Assembly (NCBI GenBank): GCA_024103175.1
Contig: JAGFJE010000572.1
Location: 1 to 38,846 of the forward strand
Length of the DNA: 38,846 nt
From: Phaeodactylibacter sp.
GTDB lineage: Bacteria > Bacteroidota > Bacteroidia > Chitinophagales > Saprospiraceae
Direction: 5' to 3'
Below the pieces are notes generated by a model. It was not told where the DNA came from, searched no databases, and saw nothing but the letters and a program-made list of their open reading frames with translations. Of this stretch, positions 24,040 to 35,361 are shown piece after piece (the first letter of the stretch is position 1; each line of letters opens with the position of its first letter). The position numbers were made by a program, and so were the translations under genes.

Positions 24040-25128
24040 ATGACTTCTATGAAGCTAATCAAACCTCTACTCTTTTTCCTCTTTACAGCCATATTGGGAA
24101 CACTACAGGCACAGGACATTCATTTCTCTCTGTATAATATGTCACCGCTGACCCTCAACCCTGCCAATACCGGCGCCTTCTTCGGCACCGCGCGGGTAGG
24201 AGGCATTTACCGGGGGCAGTGGTATAATGTTTCCGGTGCGGACGGCTACAAGACCCCTTCCTTTTACGTTGACGCCCCGATCCTTCGTGGTTTCCGTGAT
24301 CAGGACTGGATCGGCGTAGGGGGGATGATATTCAATGATGAGGCCGGGAGAGGCCGGCTGCGCACCAGCGCCACCATGATCTCTGCTTCCTATCACCTGG
24401 GCCTGGGTAAGGACGGCAAATCGGTCCTGACTTTAGGCCTGCAGGGCGGGAACGTTCAACGGCGGTATGATGCGGACAGGCTTACTTTCGGCGATGGCTT
24501 CGGCGGGCCCACTTTGGAATACGATGTCGGGAATTCCGCCGACCCGTTGCGGGGCTCTGGCTCGGATAACGGCGGAAGGGACAAGACGGACTACCTGGAC
24601 TTTGCCGCCGGCCTGCTGTTCCGCAGCCAGGTTGATGAGGGGAGCAATTTTGAACTGGGCGTCGCCGCGGCGCACCTCACCCAGCCAGACTATATCTTTG
24701 GCTCGACACCACAAGGCCAGGGGGATGTCAATTTGGACGGCGCCGAAAAACGCCCCATGCGCATCACCGCCCACACGCGGTATGAATGGGCCCTGACGGA
24801 TCGCTGGTCGGCGGCGCCTACCGCCATGTTCCAGACATCCAAAGGAGCCACGGAGGTGAACCTGCAGGCCTGGGCCGGTTACATGGTCAACCCCGAAATG
24901 CAGGTGAAACTCAATTTCGGCCTGGGCTACCGCTTCGGCGATGCCGGCAAGCTGCTGGTGGGCCTGGACTATAAAGACCTGCGCGTGGCCGCCGCTTACG
25001 ATGTGAACTTCTCCGAACTCAATACGGCGACCAACTACCAGGGTGCTTTCGAGATTGCCGCCTGGTACATCATTAAGATCTATAAAGACCCCGAGGTCAA
25101 GCAGACGATCCTATGCCCGAAGTTCTAA
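24040..25128 (+). CDS. PorP/SprF-family type IX secretion outer-membrane protein
   Basis: 362 residues, signal peptide ending near LQAQD. The mature N-terminus HFSLYNMSPLTLNPANTGAF and the following GGIYRGQWYNV are the PorP/SprF hallmark. The rest is an outer-membrane beta-barrel with many aromatic strand ends and closes with a short C-terminal strand. Members dock or anchor T9SS substrates and gliding adhesins. It is followed 154 bases later by a large OmpA protein, the usual PorP/SprF-PorE arrangement. An alternative ATG at 24049 would shorten it by three residues. Confidence 0.92.
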   Translation: MTSMKLIKPLLFFLFTAILGTLQAQDIHFSLYNMSPLTLNPANTGAFFGTARVGGIYRGQWYNVSGADGYKTPSFYVDAPILRGFRDQDWIGVGGMIFNDEAGRGRLRTSATMISASYHLGLGKDGKSVLTLGLQGGNVQRRYDADRLTFGDGFGGPTLEYDVGNSADPLRGSGSDNGGRDKTDYLDFAAGLLFRSQVDEGSNFELGVAAAHLTQPDYIFGSTPQGQGDVNLDGAEKRPMRITAHTRYEWALTDRWSAAPTAMFQTSKGATEVNLQAWAGYMVNPEMQVKLNFGLGYRFGDAGKLLVGLDYKDLRVAAAYDVNFSELNTATNYQGAFEIAAWYIIKIYKDPEVKQTILCPKF

Positions 25129-25282
25129 TATCGGGTAAGGCTTGGCAAGTTTCTGCCTGAAGGATGGGCTGAGGCAAAACCTGTTAAGCCTGTATGAGGT
25201 TCTTTTAGGGAAACTTAACAAAACATTTAAAAGGAAAACCCGGTTTTTGACGTTGAGAAAACGTGGCCAATTCAAGAAGTCT

Positions 25283-27808
25283 ATGAAAAATATACCGATA
25301 CTCATTCTATTGTTCCTGCTGGGGTGCGGCACGCTAATGGCGCAACCCATCCGGAAGTCTTCCTACGAGCAGACACTGCGGGCCGCCCGCCAGTCTTTCC
25401 AGAACCGCAACTACGTATACGCCCTGGAGCGATACGAGGAAGCCTATGAGGAAAAAGAAGACCGGTCGCTGATCGACACCATCGCCTGGCTCAATTTCCA
25501 GATCCGCGATTACCGGCGCGCTGAGCGTTGGTTCGCCCGCATCCTCCGCCGGGCGGAAGAAGGAGAACTCAACGATTACCGCTTTATCTATGGGCAACTC
25601 CTCAAGATGAACGAAAGCTACGACGAGGCCATCGCCGAGTTTCAGGCGTTCCTCAGCCATTCCAGCAACGACAGCCTCAACACCCTGGCCCGGAATGAAA
25701 TGGCCGGCGCCGAGCTGGCCAAAGAGCTGCCTCAGACGATGAAAGGCGTGGTTGTGGAAAATGCCGGCCGGGACCTCAACTCCAAAATTTCCGAATACTC
25801 GCCGGTTCTGGCCAGCAACGGGCAGGAACTGTACTTCTCCACTTTTGACGCCAATGACGTCATCTACGTCGATGAGAAAAATAAGGACGAGTCCTATGCC
25901 CTGATCTACAAGGCCATGAAGGACGACAACGGCTGGGAAAAGCCGAAAGCCCTGGGCGGAGAGATCAACCGCCCGGAATTCCACAACACCAACGTGGCCC
26001 TGTCGAAAGATGGCCGGACGATGTACTTCACCCGCGCCCAACTGGAAGGCAACGTGCTTTCCGAAAGCAAGATCTACTTCAGCACCGGCGGCAGCGAGGA
26101 CTGGAAAGGGGCGGAGGAGGCGCAGGGCATTAACGGGGATTACCTCGCCAAGCACCCGGCGGTGGGCGAGCTCTTTGGCAAGGAAGTGCTCTTCTTCGTG
26201 TCGGACATGCCGGGCGGTTATGGCGGCTTCGACATCTATTACGCCACCAAAACCGGCGAGGGCGCCTTCAGCGACCCCGTCAACCTCGGTGATGTGATCA
26301 ACACCGTTGGAGACGATGAGACGCCTTACTACCGCGACGGAACCCTCTACTTTAGCTCCACCGGCCATCCCGGCCTGGGCGGCTTCGATATCTTCTACTC
26401 TACCTGGGACGGCACCAGGTGGAGCGAGCCGGAAAATATGGGCCGCGGCTACAATACCAGCGTGGATGACCAGAGCCTCACTCTTGACGAAGAAGGCTAC
26501 TTCGGCATACTGGCCTCCAACCGCCCCGAGGGGCGCTCCGCCTACGGCCGCACCTGCTGCAACGACCTCTATACCGTCAGCATCGCCAAGCTCTACGCCG
26601 ACCTGGTCACCGGCCTGTTCACCATCGGTAAGGACCCGCTGCCCGGAGGCACTGTTTACCTCATCCCGACTCAGGACAACAAGATGGGCACTCCGAATGC
26701 CAAGACCAGCGAAGAAGGCAACCGGTTCGATTTCGACCTGGAACTGGATATGCCCTATATGGTCATCGCCACGCACCCGGATTACTTTCCGGACACCATG
26801 CAGTTCAATACAGTAGGGCTGGCCGAGTCGAAAACCTATCAGCACTTTTTCTACCTGAAACCCAAGCCGAAACTGCCGGAATACGACACCATTACCATCG
26901 AAGAGCCGATCGTTCTGGAAAACATCCTCTACGATTTCGATGATGACCGCATCCGGGAAGAGGCGGAGAGCGACCTGGAGGTTGTTTACGAACTGATGAC
27001 CGAATATCCGGACATGAAGGTCGAGCTCAGTTCTCATACCGACAACCGCGGTAATGACCAATACAACGAAGACCTCTCGCAACGACGCGCCGAATCGGCC
27101 CGCCGCTGGCTGGTCCGTAAGGGCATTTCGCGCGAGCGCATCGAGGCCAAAGGGTACGGCGAGAACCGGCCCCAGACCGTCAATGCCCGGGCGGCGGCCC
27201 TGCATGGCTTCCTGAAGGAAGGCGCTGTGCTGACCAAAGGGTTTATCGATTCCCTGCCGAACGAAGAACAGCAGGAGATCGCCCACGAGCTCAACCGCCG
27301 TACGGAATTCAAGATCCTGGAAGGCCCTACTACCATCACCATTAAGAGCACCCGCTTGCGGAAGAAGGAGACGACGAACCCCGGCCCCGACCGCGAGCGC
27401 CTCATCGGCAGTGAGCAGCCGGACACCAACAAAGTGCACATGTTGTCGTCTCTCTATGGCAAAAAGGACCTCAGGGGCCTGCCCGTGATGAAGTTCAAAA
27501 ACCGGATGGTGGAGCTGGGTACTGTAAAGAAAGGGGAAAAGCGCCGCTTTACCTACGAGTTTTACAACGCCGGCGAGGGCGACCTGACCATTTCCCTCAT
27601 CTCCGCCTGCGATTGCACCACTATCGAGAACGACCCCACCGGCGATACGTTCCCTCCCGGCTATAAGGGCATTATCGAGGCCGTCTTCGACAGCTCGGAG
27701 AAGGACGAAGCGGAAGAGATCGATATCGATATCTTCCTGGAGGAGGCCGATAACGAAGGCATCCCTATCCGGGAGACGGTGCAGTACCGGTTCGATATAA
27801 AGAAGTAA
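25283..27808 (+). CDS. TPR/WD40-like/OmpA protein (PorE-like) with DUF1573-type C-terminus
   Basis: 841 residues from ATG 25283, where a signal peptide begins (MKNIPILILLFLLGCGTLMAQ). Order: TPR-like helices (about 25-155), WD40-like/PD40 propeller with FSTFDAND, YFTRAQLEG, FFVSDMPGGYGGFDIYYA and YFSSTGHPGLGGFDIFYS (about 170-440), a carboxypeptidase-regulatory-like beta domain (about 445-530), OmpA peptidoglycan-binding domain (about 545-635; SSHTDNRGND...LSQRRAES) with an extension, then a DUF1573-like Ig domain (about 735-841) containing ACDC. The first five parts match PorE/SprE-associated OmpA proteins that tie the T9SS barrel to peptidoglycan; the DUF1573 tail is additional. Confidence 0.85.
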   Translation: MKNIPILILLFLLGCGTLMAQPIRKSSYEQTLRAARQSFQNRNYVYALERYEEAYEEKEDRSLIDTIAWLNFQIRDYRRAERWFARILRRAEEGELNDYRFIYGQLLKMNESYDEAIAEFQAFLSHSSNDSLNTLARNEMAGAELAKELPQTMKGVVVENAGRDLNSKISEYSPVLASNGQELYFSTFDANDVIYVDEKNKDESYALIYKAMKDDNGWEKPKALGGEINRPEFHNTNVALSKDGRTMYFTRAQLEGNVLSESKIYFSTGGSEDWKGAEEAQGINGDYLAKHPAVGELFGKEVLFFVSDMPGGYGGFDIYYATKTGEGAFSDPVNLGDVINTVGDDETPYYRDGTLYFSSTGHPGLGGFDIFYSTWDGTRWSEPENMGRGYNTSVDDQSLTLDEEGYFGILASNRPEGRSAYGRTCCNDLYTVSIAKLYADLVTGLFTIGKDPLPGGTVYLIPTQDNKMGTPNAKTSEEGNRFDFDLELDMPYMVIATHPDYFPDTMQFNTVGLAESKTYQHFFYLKPKPKLPEYDTITIEEPIVLENILYDFDDDRIREEAESDLEVVYELMTEYPDMKVELSSHTDNRGNDQYNEDLSQRRAESARRWLVRKGISRERIEAKGYGENRPQTVNARAAALHGFLKEGAVLTKGFIDSLPNEEQQEIAHELNRRTEFKILEGPTTITIKSTRLRKKETTNPGPDRERLIGSEQPDTNKVHMLSSLYGKKDLRGLPVMKFKNRMVELGTVKKGEKRRFTYEFYNAGEGDLTISLISACDCTTIENDPTGDTFPPGYKGIIEAVFDSSEKDEAEEIDIDIFLEEADNEGIPIRETVQYRFDIKK

Positions 27809-27938: not shown

Positions 27939-28562
27939 ATGATCGAAACCATCCTTCGCGAGGCCTTTGCTCTTAGTTGGGTCGACTGGGTGGTGACCGT
28001 TACCGCTCTGATCTATGTAGTGCTGGCGGCCCGCGAAAATGTCTGGTGCTGGTTTTGGGGTATCATCAGCTGCAGCCTCTGGGCCTATGCTTCTTTTGCG
28101 TTCTACGGGTTGTACCTGGATGCGCTGCTGCAGTTGTTCTACGTGGCCATGGCCGTTGTGGGCCTGTATCAGTGGAAGTACGGAGGGCAGGGGGGGGAAG
28201 GGGCGCCCATTACCCGGCTCACCGCTCAGCAGCATGCCTACATCCTGGCCGGCGGCACGGGGGCGGCCCTGTTGTTCGGTTACTTTTTCGACGAATACAC
28301 GCCTGCCGCCGCCACCTACTGGGATTCGTTCACCACCGTTTTTTCCGTTATCGCCACCCTGATTCTTGTCCGCAAAGTGCTGGACAACTGGGCCTACTGG
28401 ATCGGGGTCGACCTCATTTACGTGGGGCTCTACTTCAGCCGGGGCGCTTACCTTTTTGCCCTGGTAATGGTGGTGTATGTGGCCATTGCCACTGTCGCTC
28501 TGGTGAACTGGTCGAAGGAGTATCGTCGCAAAAGTATTTCCGGTACGGGGCCCGGCGGCTGA
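27939..28562 (+). CDS. pnuC: Nicotinamide riboside transporter PnuC
   Basis: 207 residues and seven to eight membrane spans, normal for PnuC. Diagnostic blocks are AARENVWCWFWGIISCSLWAY (about 30-50), the VGLYQWKYGG turn (about 73-82) and the C-terminal WAYWIGVDLIYVGLYFSRGAYLFALV. PnuC imports nicotinamide riboside (related members carry thiamine or riboflavin) for NAD synthesis. No nadR kinase is beside it, and no TPP or NAD riboswitch is recognisable upstream; that space is the nonamer hairpin. Confidence 0.92.
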   Translation: MIETILREAFALSWVDWVVTVTALIYVVLAARENVWCWFWGIISCSLWAYASFAFYGLYLDALLQLFYVAMAVVGLYQWKYGGQGGEGAPITRLTAQQHAYILAGGTGAALLFGYFFDEYTPAAATYWDSFTTVFSVIATLILVRKVLDNWAYWIGVDLIYVGLYFSRGAYLFALVMVVYVAIATVALVNWSKEYRRKSISGTGPGG

Positions 28563-28646: not shown

Positions 28647-31046
28647 ATGAGGAAACCGTTTACCGTCGTTTTGCTGCTGCTGGGGCTGGCCGGTTATGGC
28701 CAGAGCCTTACCTTCCAGGCGGAGAGCATCCGAACCTATGCGGTGGTGGTGGGCATTTCCAATTATCAGGATGAGGGCATCGGTGACCTGAGCTATGCTC
28801 ATAAGGATGCAGAGGCCTTTGCGGACTTTCTGAAGTCCAGGGCGGGCGGGGAACTGAGCCGGCGGGAGCTGAAATACCTCGTTAATGAAGAAGCTACCCT
28901 GGCCCGCATTCAGTCTGCCTTGGAATGGCTGGCCAAAAAGGCCGGAGACGGCGACCAGGCCATTTTCTACTTCGCCGGCCACGGAGATGTGGAAACCAAA
29001 AACGGCCAGGAAAAAGGCTATCTGCTGGCCTATGACACGCCTTTCAACAATTACCGCCTGAATGCCGTGGGCCTGGATTACCTCAATGAGCATATCATCA
29101 GGGGCCTGGCCCAAAAAAACGCTAAGGTGGTCATTATTACCGATGCCTGCCATTCGGGGGCGCTGGCCGGGCAGGGTATCGGCGGGCGGCAGGCAACGGC
29201 GGCGGAGATGATGAAACGCTACGCCAATGAGGTCAGGATCATGTCCTGCCAGCCCTATGAACTCTCTCAGGAGAAAAGAGCGCTGGGGGGCGGCCGCGGG
29301 GTATTTTCCTATTATCTGATCCAGGGCCTGAAAGGGCGCGCCAACCAGGGCCCTAAGGATGTGGTGGACCTGTATGAGTTGGAAAACTTCCTCCAGGAAA
29401 AGGTGAGAAAAGAGACCGGAAAGTCTCAGCATCCGGACATTTTCGGTGGCCTGAAAAAAGAGGCGTTATTCTTTATCGATGAAGCCACGCTGGAGGCCAT
29501 GAAAAGCGTGGAGAAAGCAGAAATGGACCGGACCCTGGAAGAGGAGGTCCTTTCCCGGCTGGCGACAAGGGACGGGTACAATAACTATGCCGGTTTTGAT
29601 GACGCACTGAAGAAGGGCAGGCTGCTCAGCCCGGAAGGCCGGGCGGCAGTAGATTACTACGCCCGCCTGTACGCCGACACCAACTTCATCCCGTTGAGAA
29701 GCATCATGGATGAGCGCCTGTCGATAGCCCTGATGGATTCCGTACAACAGGCCCTCAATGCCTACCTGAAGACAGACCCCGGAGAACTGGCTCAAAGGGT
29801 GCAGTACGATGAAAAGTACGGCCGTTTTCCCCGTTACCTGGAAAAAGCCGCAGAAATTTTCGGGCCTCAGGACCCGCGCTACCAACCCACCCTCGCCAAA
29901 CAATACTACTTTGAAGGGCTGGTACTTCGCCTGGAGGCGGAACAGTCCGGTAACCGGGACTCCCTGTTTCGCCTGGCCCTGGAAAAACAGGAAAAAGCGT
30001 TGGGGCAGGAAAGCCGCGCCGCCTATATCCACAATGAGCTGGGCATTTTGCTGCCGGAGCTGGGGGAACCGGAAAACGGTATCGCCCACCTGCAGCAGGC
30101 AATCGGGGTATCGCCCACCTGGGCCATCCCGTACAACAACCTGGCCATTGAGTACAAACGGCAGGGCAGGCTGGAGGAGGCCGAAGAGAATTACCGGAAA
30201 GCCATTGCCCTGAAACCCGATTTCGCTTCCGCCTATTCCAACCTGGGTAATCTCCTGGTGGAGTTGGAGGAATATAGCGCCGCCGATTCCCTGTACCGCA
30301 AGGGTATCGAGCTCGGGCCGGAATACAGGGAAAACTACTTCAACCTGGGGCTTTTGCTCAGCCAGTCGGAGGGGCGGGAAGCCGGAGCGGACAGCCTGTT
30401 CCGGCAGGTGCTCCGGCTCGACCCCAACTATCCGGAGGCTTATTTTGAGCTAGGTAATCTGTACGACTACCTCGGACAGGCGGATTCGGCTGAAGCCTTA
30501 TACCTCCGGGCCATCGGCCTGCGCCCGGATTACGTCGAAGCGCATCAGAACCTCGGCATCCTTTATTATGCTCAGGGACAAATAGGAGAGGCCGAAAGCC
30601 GTTTCCTCGAAGCCGTCCGTTCGGATCCGGCCTATGTTCCCGTTTACGTCAACCTGGGGTTCCTGTACGCCGTTGAAGGGCGGTGGGCGGAAGCGGTGCG
30701 CCTGTTGCAGGAGTCTCCCTTCGATACGGCGGGGCAGGTGCAGGTGTTCCACGAGATCGGTTATGCTGCTTTTCAATCCGAAATGTACGATGAGGCGCTG
30801 CGTGCGTTTGAAGCCGCTGTCGGCCTGGATGCAGCCGAACCGTGGAACCATTACCTGGCCTGTATGTTCTACACCCTTCGGGGGCGGCAGGACGAAGCGC
30901 TCGATGCTTTGCAAACTACCCTGGAAAAGGCGCGGGCCGTCGATGAGGATTACTTTGAAAGGATTAGTACGGATGAAAACCTGGCGCCGCTTCGGGAGAC
31001 GGAGCGGTATCGGGCATTGATGAAGGAATTCTATCCCGGGCGGTAG
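28647..31046 (+). CDS. Exported caspase-like (C14) protease with C-terminal TPR array
   Basis: 799 residues. A signal peptide ends near GYGQS (about 19). The caspase domain (about 28-275) has the start YAVVVGISNYQDEGIGDL, catalytic His112 in FYFAGHGD and Cys168 in ITDACHSG, so the catalytic pair is intact; Asp two residues before the Cys predicts cleavage after basic residues, as in metacaspases. A helical linker (about 280-420) leads to about ten TPR units (about 430-790) of the NLGNLL...A..Y.KGIEL type. The TPRs probably bind a partner. First of three related genes; the next starts 142 bases on with its own promoter. Confidence 0.88.
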   Translation: MRKPFTVVLLLLGLAGYGQSLTFQAESIRTYAVVVGISNYQDEGIGDLSYAHKDAEAFADFLKSRAGGELSRRELKYLVNEEATLARIQSALEWLAKKAGDGDQAIFYFAGHGDVETKNGQEKGYLLAYDTPFNNYRLNAVGLDYLNEHIIRGLAQKNAKVVIITDACHSGALAGQGIGGRQATAAEMMKRYANEVRIMSCQPYELSQEKRALGGGRGVFSYYLIQGLKGRANQGPKDVVDLYELENFLQEKVRKETGKSQHPDIFGGLKKEALFFIDEATLEAMKSVEKAEMDRTLEEEVLSRLATRDGYNNYAGFDDALKKGRLLSPEGRAAVDYYARLYADTNFIPLRSIMDERLSIALMDSVQQALNAYLKTDPGELAQRVQYDEKYGRFPRYLEKAAEIFGPQDPRYQPTLAKQYYFEGLVLRLEAEQSGNRDSLFRLALEKQEKALGQESRAAYIHNELGILLPELGEPENGIAHLQQAIGVSPTWAIPYNNLAIEYKRQGRLEEAEENYRKAIALKPDFASAYSNLGNLLVELEEYSAADSLYRKGIELGPEYRENYFNLGLLLSQSEGREAGADSLFRQVLRLDPNYPEAYFELGNLYDYLGQADSAEALYLRAIGLRPDYVEAHQNLGILYYAQGQIGEAESRFLEAVRSDPAYVPVYVNLGFLYAVEGRWAEAVRLLQESPFDTAGQVQVFHEIGYAAFQSEMYDEALRAFEAAVGLDAAEPWNHYLACMFYTLRGRQDEALDALQTTLEKARAVDEDYFERISTDENLAPLRETERYRALMKEFYPGR

Positions 31047-31131
31047 CCGGAAGGGCGCTGGTGGGTAACCTTAGGGCCGCCCGGCAAATGAACCCCCCGG
31101 AACATTTTCTGAAGGAAAATCCAGAGTTTGC

Positions 31132-31139
31132 TATCTTTA
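31132..31139 (+). promoter_or_regulatory. -7 promoter element of the second caspase gene
   Basis: TATCTTTA, one base off consensus, 50 bases before ATG 31189. It suggests that the caspase/TPR pair downstream can be expressed apart from the first caspase gene. Confidence 0.45.
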
Positions 31140-31188
31140 GTAGTGCATTGGCCATTTTGTTGCGGAGAATAACCTAAAAACTATAGAA

Positions 31189-32517
31189 ATGAAACATCTG
31201 AAACCTTTATTCCTCTTCCTGTCCTTTTCCCTGGGGCTGGAAGCCCAGGGGACGTTTCACCTCATCTACAGCATCGACCAGTACAATCAGGACGTCAACA
31301 AGGGCTGCCAGGTTGATGGTGAAAATATATCCTTTACGCTGGAATTGCTGGCCGAATCTGCCGGTATGCCCGTTAAAAAGTACTCTTACGGCTTCAGCCA
31401 GCAGGATGCTTATAAATTTTTCCAGAATTTCACCTGCGGCGCGGATGACGTTGTCATTTTCTTCTATTCGGGCCATGGTTTCCGTACCGAAGATGACCAG
31501 GTGGCCTGGCCGTTGATGTACTACTGCGTGGAGAACGAGGCGCCTGCCGGAGGCGAGGGCCTGAAGAGCTGTGGCGTGCCCCTCGACTGGGTGCATCAGG
31601 TGCTGATCAATAAAGGGCCGCGGATGTCTCTTACTATTGGCAACAGCTGTAATAATGTGCCGGGAGACGAAAAGGCCAATAAACGGGCACAAGGCCTGAA
31701 AAAAGATAAACCGGACGACGCCACGGAAAAGAAAATGCAGAACCTGGCCCTGCTGACCAGTTTCAGCGGCCATATCATCGCCTCTGGCGCTTCTCCGGGG
31801 CAGTTCGCCTACACCAATGATGAAACGGGCTCCTATTTTGTCAATGAGCTGATGGATGTGATGCTGGACGGGCTTTTCTTCACCGAGCAATCTACTTCCT
31901 GGGCCAGTATACTCAAAAAAACAAGAGATAATGTTCAGAAAAAGAAACCCGATCAGCGCCCTCAGTTTATGATCGTCGCCAACAATAAGCGAATGTATTC
32001 TGAGGGTAGCGACAATTACCAGGGCGATTACGAAGAACTGGGCCTGCATGTGCCCGAGTTCTGGGAGGAAGGCGATGAGCTGTCCTACGATAACATGGAA
32101 TGGGAGGAATTCGACGAAGAAGATTACGCCGAGGAATGGGAAACGGAGTTTGAGCAGGGCGAACTGGAAGAACTGGCCCTGGAAGAGCTGCCCTATATCC
32201 TGCTTCACGCCATGAGAATGGACGACGGGCAGGTCAGCCAGGGTGAATTCGATAAGGTATATTCCAGCTACCACGACGGGATGGAGGATTACGGCTACGG
32301 CCCGGAAACCATTGGCCTCATGTTCGAACTGGCCATTGAGGATTTCAATAGCGATGACCCTGAATTCTTTAATATTTTCCTCGAAGATGCGATCGTGCAG
32401 TTCAGGGAGCATGTCGATCCGGATATCCAGGCCGATATTCTTGCTGTAATTCAGGGCGCCAGCGATAGCCCGGATGCGCCTGATTTCCAGGATTTTGTCG
32501 AGAGTTTAACTTATTAA
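31189..32517 (+). CDS. Second exported caspase-like protein with acidic C-terminus
   Basis: 442 residues. The signal peptide ends near LEAQG. The caspase-like domain (about 22-270) keeps FFYSGHGFR (His96) and a Cys in TIGNSCNN (Cys154), but the usual D-x-C-H-S-G has become N-S-C-N-N, so the acidic S1 residue is missing and specificity or activity may differ. A very acidic stretch follows (about 285-330; WEEFDEEDYAEEW), then a helical region with MDDGQVSQGEFDKV and AIEDFNSDDPEFF that looks EF-hand-like but is not a clear calcium loop. The downstream TPR gene starts after 24 bases, so the two are probably cotranscribed. Confidence 0.8.
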   Translation: MKHLKPLFLFLSFSLGLEAQGTFHLIYSIDQYNQDVNKGCQVDGENISFTLELLAESAGMPVKKYSYGFSQQDAYKFFQNFTCGADDVVIFFYSGHGFRTEDDQVAWPLMYYCVENEAPAGGEGLKSCGVPLDWVHQVLINKGPRMSLTIGNSCNNVPGDEKANKRAQGLKKDKPDDATEKKMQNLALLTSFSGHIIASGASPGQFAYTNDETGSYFVNELMDVMLDGLFFTEQSTSWASILKKTRDNVQKKKPDQRPQFMIVANNKRMYSEGSDNYQGDYEELGLHVPEFWEEGDELSYDNMEWEEFDEEDYAEEWETEFEQGELEELALEELPYILLHAMRMDDGQVSQGEFDKVYSSYHDGMEDYGYGPETIGLMFELAIEDFNSDDPEFFNIFLEDAIVQFREHVDPDIQADILAVIQGASDSPDAPDFQDFVESLTY

Positions 32518-32541
32518 ATACCATCTAAAATCCATTTATTC

Positions 32542-33324
32542 ATGAAGAATTCGCTGCTTCTATTACTGTTGGCATTGCTATTCCAATTCAGCCTGTATGG
32601 ACAGGGCCGCCAACCCTCCACCACCGATAAAACCCCTAAGTTCACCGGCGGGTCTATGGCCATGGTAAAGACCAGGACCAAACCCAAAGACAAAAAGTTG
32701 GGCCTGGGCGCGCCCTTACGCCCGGAGGCCATCGAGAATGAAAACGTGGGCGCCGCCTTTGACACCATGGAGGAAGGCGATTACGATGTAGCCATCGACC
32801 AACTGGATGATTATTCGGAGAGCGACCCCGATGCAGCTTTCGGCCTGGGCTTTGCTTACTATCTGGAGGGGCAAACCGATCAGGCTATCGAAGCCTTCCG
32901 GCAGGTGGCTGTGCTGGACCCGGAGAATACCGAAGCCCTCTATTTTCTGGCCCTGATTTACGAAGAACAGGGCGATTATGAAAAGGCAGAGGGCGCATTG
33001 CTCGACTTGTTGCTCATTGAGCCTATGGATCTATTGGCCTGGTATGAACTGGGGTTCCTGTACCTGGACGCAGGATTTTACCAGGATGCCTTCGACTGTT
33101 TCGAGAACGTCTTGTTCATCGACCCCGAAGATCCGGATGCCCCCTATGAGATTGCCCGCCTCCATGCTATCTCCGGCAATACAGATGAAGCCCTGAATGC
33201 CCTGGAACTGGCCTTTGAGAACGGGTTTTACGATGAAGACTTTGTCAGAGTAGACCCCGATCTGGAAGAGGCCAGAAATACCGCGCGGTTTGCTGAGCTG
33301 ATGGCAATATATTTTCCCGAGTAG
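32542..33324 (+). CDS. Exported TPR protein
   Basis: 260 residues. The signal peptide ends near LYGQG; a basic linker follows (about 22-62), then about four TPR units (about 65-230; GFAYYLEGQTDQAIEAF, ALIYEEQGDYEKAE, LGFLYLDAGFYQDAFDCF). The tail (ALELAFENGFYDEDFVRVDPDLEEAR...RFAELMAIYFP) matches the end of the caspase-TPR protein at 28647-31046 (DEDYFERISTDENLAPLRETERYRALMKEFYP), which shows common descent of the TPR parts. It is probably an adaptor for the two caspase-like proteins. Confidence 0.82.
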   Translation: MKNSLLLLLLALLFQFSLYGQGRQPSTTDKTPKFTGGSMAMVKTRTKPKDKKLGLGAPLRPEAIENENVGAAFDTMEEGDYDVAIDQLDDYSESDPDAAFGLGFAYYLEGQTDQAIEAFRQVAVLDPENTEALYFLALIYEEQGDYEKAEGALLDLLLIEPMDLLAWYELGFLYLDAGFYQDAFDCFENVLFIDPEDPDAPYEIARLHAISGNTDEALNALELAFENGFYDEDFVRVDPDLEEARNTARFAELMAIYFPE

Positions 33325-33714: not shown

Positions 33715-35361
33715 ATGAATAGCATAAAGAGCAAGGTTATTTTAATCATCTTTGCCGTGCTTTCAGCCAACGCTGCCTGGGCACAGGCAGAGGGCGGCAG
33801 CTCAGTATCCGGATCCTATCTCGTGTACGGCCTGATCGTCGTAGCCGTACTGGTTTTCTTCATGATCATACTGCAGGTTGCGGACAACCTGATGGTGATC
33901 GAGGCCAAGCAGTCCGGTGCGGACCAGAACGGGGCCAACTTCTCGATCTTCCCCAGATGGAAGGAGATCTTTGCTCCGCGCCTTCCCGAATACCTCCGGG
34001 ACAAGCCCCTGACCGTCTTGCGCCGCGGGCACAACATCAACCTGGAAGGAGAGGCTGAACAAAGGCTGGACGAAAGCGTGCAGGCAAAGGCCTTCGCGGT
34101 GCAGCCGCCCAATTTCCCGGGCATTTCCCCCATTCCCAAGGTGGTGGTGGAAGTGGGCGATGAAGTCAAAGCCGGCGACCACCTTTTCTTTGACAAGAAG
34201 CGCCCGGAGATCATGCACGTCGCGCCGGTAAGCGGCGAAGTCATCGCCATCAACCGCGGCGCCAAGCGTTCCATCTCCGAGGTGGTTATCCTGGCCGATA
34301 AGGATATCAAATACCGCGAGCTGAAGGCTTTCGGCCTGGAAGGAAGCAGCCGGGAAGATCTCGTCAGTTACCTGCTCGATGCCGGCGTATGGCCTCTGAT
34401 CCGCCAGCGCCCATTCGACATCATTCCCGAGCCCGAGGTGGCGCCCCGCGATATTTTCATCTCCACTTTCGATACTGCTCCGCTGGCTCCCAACCTCAAC
34501 TTTGTCATCAATGGTAAGGAGGAAGCCTTCCAGAAAGGCCTGGATGTGCTCGCCAAGCTGACCGACGGCAAGGTTTACCTCGGCCTGGATGGGCGCGGCA
34601 AAGAGCAACCGCATCCGGCATTTGCCGAGGCAAAAGGAGTAGAGATCCATTATTTCCATGGGAAGCACCCGGCGGGAAATGTCGGAGTACAGATCCACCA
34701 CATCCGTCCCATTAGCGCCGGCGATAAGGTCTGGACGCTCGGCGTACAGGAAGTAGTCACCATCGGCCGGTTGTTCACAGAACAGCGGTACAATGCAGAA
34801 CGCATCGTTGCCCTTACCGGCGCTGAACTCAAGGCCGCGAAATACGCGCGCACCTATATTGGGGCCAATGTGGGCGACCTGGTCAAGGACAACCTGGCCA
34901 ATGATCACATCCGCTTAATTTCCGGCGATGTGCTGTCCGGCAAAAAGAAAACAGCAGAAAACTTCCTCAATATCTTCGACGACCAGCTGACGGTGGTCCT
35001 GGAAGGCGATGACTACGAGCTATTCGGCTGGCTGATCCCCGCGCTGAATACGCCCAGCATCTCGCCCTCTCTTCCCTCCTCCTTCTTCCCCGGGATGAAA
35101 AAGCGGGCAGAGACCAATACCCACGGCGAGAAGCGCGCCTTCGTGGTCACGGGTATTTACGAATCCGTGTTGCCTATGGATATCTATCCGCAGGAGTTGA
35201 TGAAGTCCATCCTTATCGGGGATTTTGAAAAGATCGAAGGGCTGGGGATCTATGAACTCAGCGAAGAAGACGTGGCGCTCTGTGAGTTTGCCTGCGTCTC
35301 CAAGCAGCCCGTCCAGCAGATCCTCCGTAAAGGGCTGGATATGATGCGCGAGCAAGTATAA
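33715..35361 (+). CDS. nqrA: Na+-translocating NADH:quinone reductase subunit A with N-terminal membrane extension
   Basis: 548 residues against about 450 for classic NqrA. The NqrA core begins around residue 98 (LTVLRRGHNINLEGEAEQ), with PNFPGISPIPKVVVEVGDEVKAGDHLFFDK, the GKHPAGNVGVQIHHI block and a C-terminal CEFACVSKQPVQQILRKGLDMM. The extra 97 residues contain a signal-like segment (1-24, ending AWAQA) and a membrane span (about 33-56), so this usually peripheral subunit is probably anchored. NqrA forms part of the cytoplasmic, quinone-proximal side of the complex. First gene of nqrABCDE; nqrB follows after 43 bases. Confidence 0.93.
   Translation: MNSIKSKVILIIFAVLSANAAWAQAEGGSSVSGSYLVYGLIVVAVLVFFMIILQVADNLMVIEAKQSGADQNGANFSIFPRWKEIFAPRLPEYLRDKPLTVLRRGHNINLEGEAEQRLDESVQAKAFAVQPPNFPGISPIPKVVVEVGDEVKAGDHLFFDKKRPEIMHVAPVSGEVIAINRGAKRSISEVVILADKDIKYRELKAFGLEGSSREDLVSYLLDAGVWPLIRQRPFDIIPEPEVAPRDIFISTFDTAPLAPNLNFVINGKEEAFQKGLDVLAKLTDGKVYLGLDGRGKEQPHPAFAEAKGVEIHYFHGKHPAGNVGVQIHHIRPISAGDKVWTLGVQEVVTIGRLFTEQRYNAERIVALTGAELKAAKYARTYIGANVGDLVKDNLANDHIRLISGDVLSGKKKTAENFLNIFDDQLTVVLEGDDYELFGWLIPALNTPSISPSLPSSFFPGMKKRAETNTHGEKRAFVVTGIYESVLPMDIYPQELMKSILIGDFEKIEGLGIYELSEEDVALCEFACVSKQPVQQILRKGLDMMREQV

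Follow-up and report, generated by a model that had tools for sequence, protein, structure and literature searches.

Exported caspase and TPR genes conserved as a trio in Saprospiraceae suggest an undescribed envelope protease system

Caspases of bacteria have chiefly been discussed as proteases of death or defence that act in the cytoplasm. A locus of Phaeodactylibacter sp. raises the question of what such enzymes could do when they are exported. In the window, i.e., the whole stretch of 38,846 nucleotides analysed here, which is the entire contig C38 of a 7.9-Mb draft genome (G000) with 20 C14 caspase-domain matches genome-wide, three neighbouring genes on the plus strand (28647–33324; hereafter A, B and C) encode a caspase with a TPR array, a divergent second caspase and a stand-alone TPR protein. 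An initial annotation, whose coordinates and reading frames proved exact, had described them as three consecutive signal-peptide proteins, and open reading frames, Pfam matches and N-termini agree with this description. Our analysis suggests that they belong to a hitherto undescribed protease system of the cell envelope and do not encode a cytoplasmic death or defence protease of the usual kind.

Genes A and B are separated by 142 bases and B and C by 24. B may have its own promoter in the first gap, which is long enough for one; the Bacteroidota-type promoter TTTG-N16-22-TAnnTTTG had zero matches within the window. By a simple rule (hydrophobic core plus basic n-region), a signal peptide was called at the N-terminus of A, B and C and of nearly all orthologues. 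Read by this rule, the N-terminus of each window protein has a short basic stretch and then a hydrophobic core up to a GQ/AQ-type site, e.g., approximately MRKPFTVVLLLLGLAGYGQ in A (28647–28703), and a lipobox Cys is absent from all three signal peptides. A C-terminal T9SS sorting domain (Pfam Por_Secre_tail) was not matched in A, B or C, although the window carries T9SS-type genes. Among the other genes of the window, a PorP/SprF gene (24040–25128) adjoins one for a PorE/CHU_0125-like OmpA protein (25142–27808; best match NF052230, below cut-off) with a C-terminal DUF1573/Ig-like domain. The trio itself is flanked by pnuC (27939–28562) and by nqr genes (nqrA at 33715). In the nqrA reading frame (33715–35361), the NqrA match only begins at residue 102. 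The roughly 100 residues ahead of it form an N-terminal extension that includes a segment resembling a signal peptide as well as another hydrophobic stretch, an unusual feature for the cytoplasmic NqrA. A horizontal island was considered and rejected, as the GC content of the trio resembles that of the rest of the window, being slightly lower at 32–34 kb.

Gene A (28647–31046, 799 aa) encodes an exported caspase followed by a long TPR superhelix. Pfam Peptidase_C14 matched residues 30–271 (82 bits, cut-off 21.4), together with many TPRs, and the best named NCBIfam caspase-family match of A, NF047832, scored 81.9 bits (19.6 for B), neither protein reaching its cut-off of 140. The AlphaFold2 model built on the orthologue alignment (pLDDT 80.8) consists of the caspase, a conserved helical linker (29484–29996) and the TPR superhelix (29994–31025), which matches that of OGT (1w3b). 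The protein ends in NCBIfam NF047558 TPR_END_plus (residues 738–793, 30858–31025; 52 bits, cut-off 32). The dyad H112/C168 is invariant among the orthologues. His112 of the AGHGD motif (28980–28982) is conserved in all nine trio-A orthologues and is His in 30/30 aligned A-type rows, and the DAC motif D166-A167-C168 (29142–29150) likewise recurs in all 30. In the metacaspase TbMCA2, Asp95 and Asp211 line the S1 pocket and fit Arg or Lys (PMC4357240, PMC6426788). A keeps both acids, as D54 and D166, the equivalences for A as well as B being taken from motif position.

Gene B (31189–32517, 442 aa) had been annotated as a second, divergent caspase with an acidic tail, and this description held. 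Peptidase_C14 is its only Pfam match (residues 25–269, 70 bits, cut-off 21.4), and the AlphaFold2 model from the orthologue alignment (pLDDT 76) combines a caspase fold with a helical acidic tail. In Foldseek, the nearest solved folds were MALT1 paracaspase and animal caspases (probability 1.00), but at about 14% identity and without Ig or death domains in B. MALT1 is Arg-specific and uses an S1 acid two residues before the catalytic Cys, whereas B has none at this position. The tail (residues 280–442, 32041–32514), helical in the model from residue 315 on, has a pI of 4.05 and a net charge of about –48; it is missing in some orthologues (G252, G002). The dyad is intact, with His96 (YSGHG, 31474–31476) and Cys154 invariant in 13/13 trio-type B proteins.

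What sets B apart is its pocket. In N152-S153-C154 (31642–31650), the residue two before the catalytic Cys is N or S in 13/13 trio-type B proteins versus D or E in 31/31 relatives, and the Cys is followed by Asn instead of H/R-S/A-G; the first pocket acid, D43, is retained. Because both acids are kept in A and the second is changed in B, A should cut after Arg or Lys and B otherwise. With D43 still present, the shift in B stands as a prediction. Cys113 (31525–31527) and Cys128 (31570–31572), which both occur in 13/13 trio-type B proteins and together in 0/31 relatives, form a candidate disulfide. They are the only candidates left, since Cys40, also considered as a partner, aligns with the S1-pocket Cys92 of TbMCA2. 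We predict from these residues that B is catalytically active with an altered P1 preference and that a disulfide stabilises it, as suits an exported protein.

Gene C (32542–33324, 260 aa) encodes the exported stand-alone TPR protein, whose Pfam matches are TPRs only. A short segment after the signal peptide (F-T-G-G ... D-K-x-x-G-L-G, 32641–32709) recurs in most C orthologues. The annotated likeness between its tail and the end of A is real: NF047558 TPR_END_plus covers residues 200–254 (33139–33303) at 64.7 bits, above the cut-off that A also passes. As the best non-C matches of C, in the window's genome and in relatives, are tails of A-type caspase-TPR proteins, C most likely originated from such a tail.

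The proposal of a joint function in the initial annotation depended on conservation of the three genes together in relatives. B alignments were searched against order, phylum and family samples of draft genomes (the family sample being non-exhaustive), and each trio-type locus was read. Strong trio-type B occurred as 13 copies in 12 genomes of a single family, Saprospiraceae (G000, G002, G008, G193, G216, G232, G238, G252, G266 with two copies, G822, G847 and G868), among them Phaeodactylibacter sp. mag.14 (G002, same genus), Neolewinella aquimaris (G008), Lewinella sp. JB7 (G216) and N. maritima (G238). The order and phylum samples yielded no trio-type B outside the family, just stand-alone or distant relatives, and B was not found in the 81% complete same-genus genome G001. 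A lies directly upstream of B on the same strand in all 11 assessable genomes, G868 being left out as its B starts at a contig edge, and C lies directly downstream in 11 of 12 (exception G822); the second B copy of G266 has a different TPR gene downstream. Contiguous A-B-C with short gaps was present in nine genomes besides the window, at 26–64% identity to the window proteins. The three-gene order is thus conserved.

In the trees, the trio A proteins form one clade (100/100), which also holds the A of G171 and one G216 paralogue, while the other A-type copy of the window's genome falls outside. Trio-type B is a single clade with a long stem (100/100) against the 31 relatives, most of which are stand-alone exported caspases. 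A different B-related kind was seen in G023, G956 and G817 (loci L187, L189 and L192) as tandems of two or three short exported caspases. Some of these have altered motifs, e.g., L187:7466–8293, which reads SGPG where the others read SGHG. The divergences of A, B and C correlate (r 0.91–0.93), which fits co-inheritance and is also expected from plain vertical descent. G171 carries A-C-D-E-F (D to F are described below) without B, so C tracks A, making A-C the steadier pair and B an optional member.

The initial annotation had read the trio as a set of its own. While the order of the three genes holds, in most relatives they belong to a larger exported cluster that also encodes a CHASE2 protein and an M48-like metalloprotease. 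Three further genes adjoin the trio in 9 of 12 genomes, in the order A-B-C-D-E-F in six (G008, G216, G232, G266, G193, G847) and rearranged in G238, G252 and G868. D is a CHASE2 membrane protein (95.7 bits). E is exported, about 320 aa long and without a match to any known family; a FecR label was dropped, as there was no Pfam FecR match even at E-values up to 1. F, likewise exported and about 540 aa long, carries a signal peptide, an invariant HExxH and a downstream glutamate. It is weakly M48-like, with M48 matches in 4/7 members and one F paralogue passing the M48 cut-off. Often present as well is G, a divergent gene of about 520 aa, exported and, judged by eye, with a barrel-like C-terminus. 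F-type genes are widespread in the order and, beyond the genomes of this family, were found within the order only. They usually stand beside E, D, G and additional caspases of the A or WD40 type, sometimes also beside ECF sigma factors. In two such sister clusters, an ECF sigma factor and a following gene in a putatively anti-sigma-like place stand beside F-/A-type genes (L139:14650–16050, L142:4030–5347). In the window's genus, the trio stands alone, with E, F, G and a further A-type caspase placed on a separate contig (C786 in G000, C602 in G002). On C786 (L129, 1125–13525), G, F and E are followed by an A-type caspase-TPR with a DACR motif, a second F and a WD40-caspase of 1181 aa. A CHASE2 gene was not detectable in the window's genome, so the link to a sensor is not universal.

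Since the trio is inherited together across the family, in most cases next to a likely membrane sensor and another exported protease, we read it as an envelope (periplasmic) protease module in which A recruits via its TPRs, B has altered specificity, C acts as adaptor and a sensor is linked in most relatives; we give this reading a probability of roughly 45%. For such a module, whose protease activity, contacts, relay, signal and substrates we infer, the TPR superhelix of the orthocaspase A would recruit partners or substrates. B would be a second exported caspase, drawn into the module long ago, with a cleavage preference differing from that of A. Given its changed pocket, the pair could cover two types of cut or form an A-then-B relay, and C, as a detached A-type TPR tail, could serve as a bridging or competing adaptor. 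The CHASE2 protein D would be the likely sensor. An extracytoplasmic trigger is suggested by the location of the module beside D, the M48-like metalloprotease and the exported E in most relatives, and such a signal might set off processing or clearance of envelope or surface proteins.

A bolder version of this scheme is a relay outside the cytoplasm in which CHASE2 signals, the Arg/Lys-type A is the initiator, B is the executor acting on envelope proteins and the TPRs hold the components together. If true, this would be a bacterial envelope counterpart of the initiator/executor logic of caspases. Activation of B by A through Lys or Arg in the inter-domain loop of B was considered and finds no support, as K/R is no richer there than in the relatives; the relay hence stays a bare possibility, and an improbable one.

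Simple housekeeping or nutritional proteolysis, in which ordinary exported proteases and TPR proteins process or scavenge proteins without sensing or relay, is a doubtful alternative. Bacteroidota are well known to export clan CD proteases (gingipain, PMC4357240), C11 clostripains are included in this model and the relatives of B are for the most part exported caspases that stand alone. However, a conserved set of several genes looks regulated when it includes CHASE2 and paired TPR proteins, with ECF sigma factors in sister clusters, and the T9SS tail for delivery to the surface was not matched in A, B or C. Regulated lysis or altruistic death could also start from the envelope, with A and B as triggered executioners that break down proteins there and lyse their own or a neighbouring cell, but this seems rather unlikely. 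It would fit the caspase fold with intact dyads as well as the many caspases typical of the family, e.g., 28 in Haliscomenobacter according to a 2012 catalogue (PMC3501461), besides the 20 C14 matches in the window's genome. A also matches the PADLOC caspase profile, but at the domain level only, and membership in a defence system was rejected on this basis. Furthermore, no toxin, amidase, holin, STAND/NACHT NTPase or antitoxin-like gene was seen with the trio, and its inheritance looks vertical within one family, unlike the patchy spread of defence islands. That B, and perhaps A, is a non-proteolytic pseudo-caspase, i.e., a scaffold or sensor binding peptides in an envelope signalling complex where D senses and the TPRs assemble, would suit the pocket acid kept in 31/31 relatives and lacking in B, the likely gained disulfide and the Asn after the catalytic Cys, but is improbable with His96 and Cys154 invariant in 13/13, as pseudo-orthocaspases are defined by the loss of these residues (PMC6426788).

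How far, then, is the proposed envelope protease module a new system? The initial annotation could not name it, and a search of open-licence papers, which could miss a subscription paper, found none describing this gene set. The components are nonetheless familiar: bacterial caspases that are exported or transmembrane, that bear TPRs or that occur in tandem each appear in the 2012 catalogue (Asplund-Samuelsson, PMC3501461), as do sigma-70/metacaspase operons. With the TPR-bearing orthocaspases and metacaspases (C14B; PMC3501461, PMC6426788), the trio shares the C14 fold, the His/Cys dyad and the TPR fusion, and these proteins likewise have possible signal peptides and are sometimes found several to an operon, also in Bacteroidetes. 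A conserved and exported A-B-C set in which the second caspase has a changed pocket and the TPR protein is free, with CHASE2 and M48-like neighbours, is, however, not among the operons described in the portions of the catalogue used here. The ECF sigma factors in sister clusters of A-/F-type genes recall the operons of sigma-70 and metacaspase genes in Myxococcus and others (PMC3501461), but no sigma gene stands beside the window trio, and CHASE2 and M48-like exported proteins are not in that description.

EACC1 and related conflict systems employ caspases at the membrane (PMC7159879, PMC8195603), and the two-gene EACC1-caspase systems (PMC7159879) similarly place a caspase gene near a membrane component. 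NF047832, the profile for the EACC1-associated caspase (conflict system 4), is the one whose cut-off neither A nor B reaches. The trio differs in being a constant module without diversifying effectors and with both caspases exported; an EACC1 gene with one TM helix was not recognised 5' of the trio, where PnuC is the neighbour in the window and other genes are found in relatives. Gingipains (C25) and fragipain/clostripains (C11) likewise combine a caspase-like fold, export and the Arg/Lys specificity that is predicted here for A. In contrast, A and B belong to another Pfam family (C14 was the sole peptidase family matched, with no Pfam C25 or C11), comprise two linked enzymes with TPR proteins and did not match a T9SS sorting tail.

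The carriers include cultured, testable organisms, namely Neolewinella aquimaris, N. maritima and Lewinella sp. JB7. In this family, a conserved exported caspase pair with complementary predicted specificities and a TPR partner, usually accompanied by a sensor and a metalloprotease, would show that caspase-type signalling or processing takes place in the bacterial envelope.
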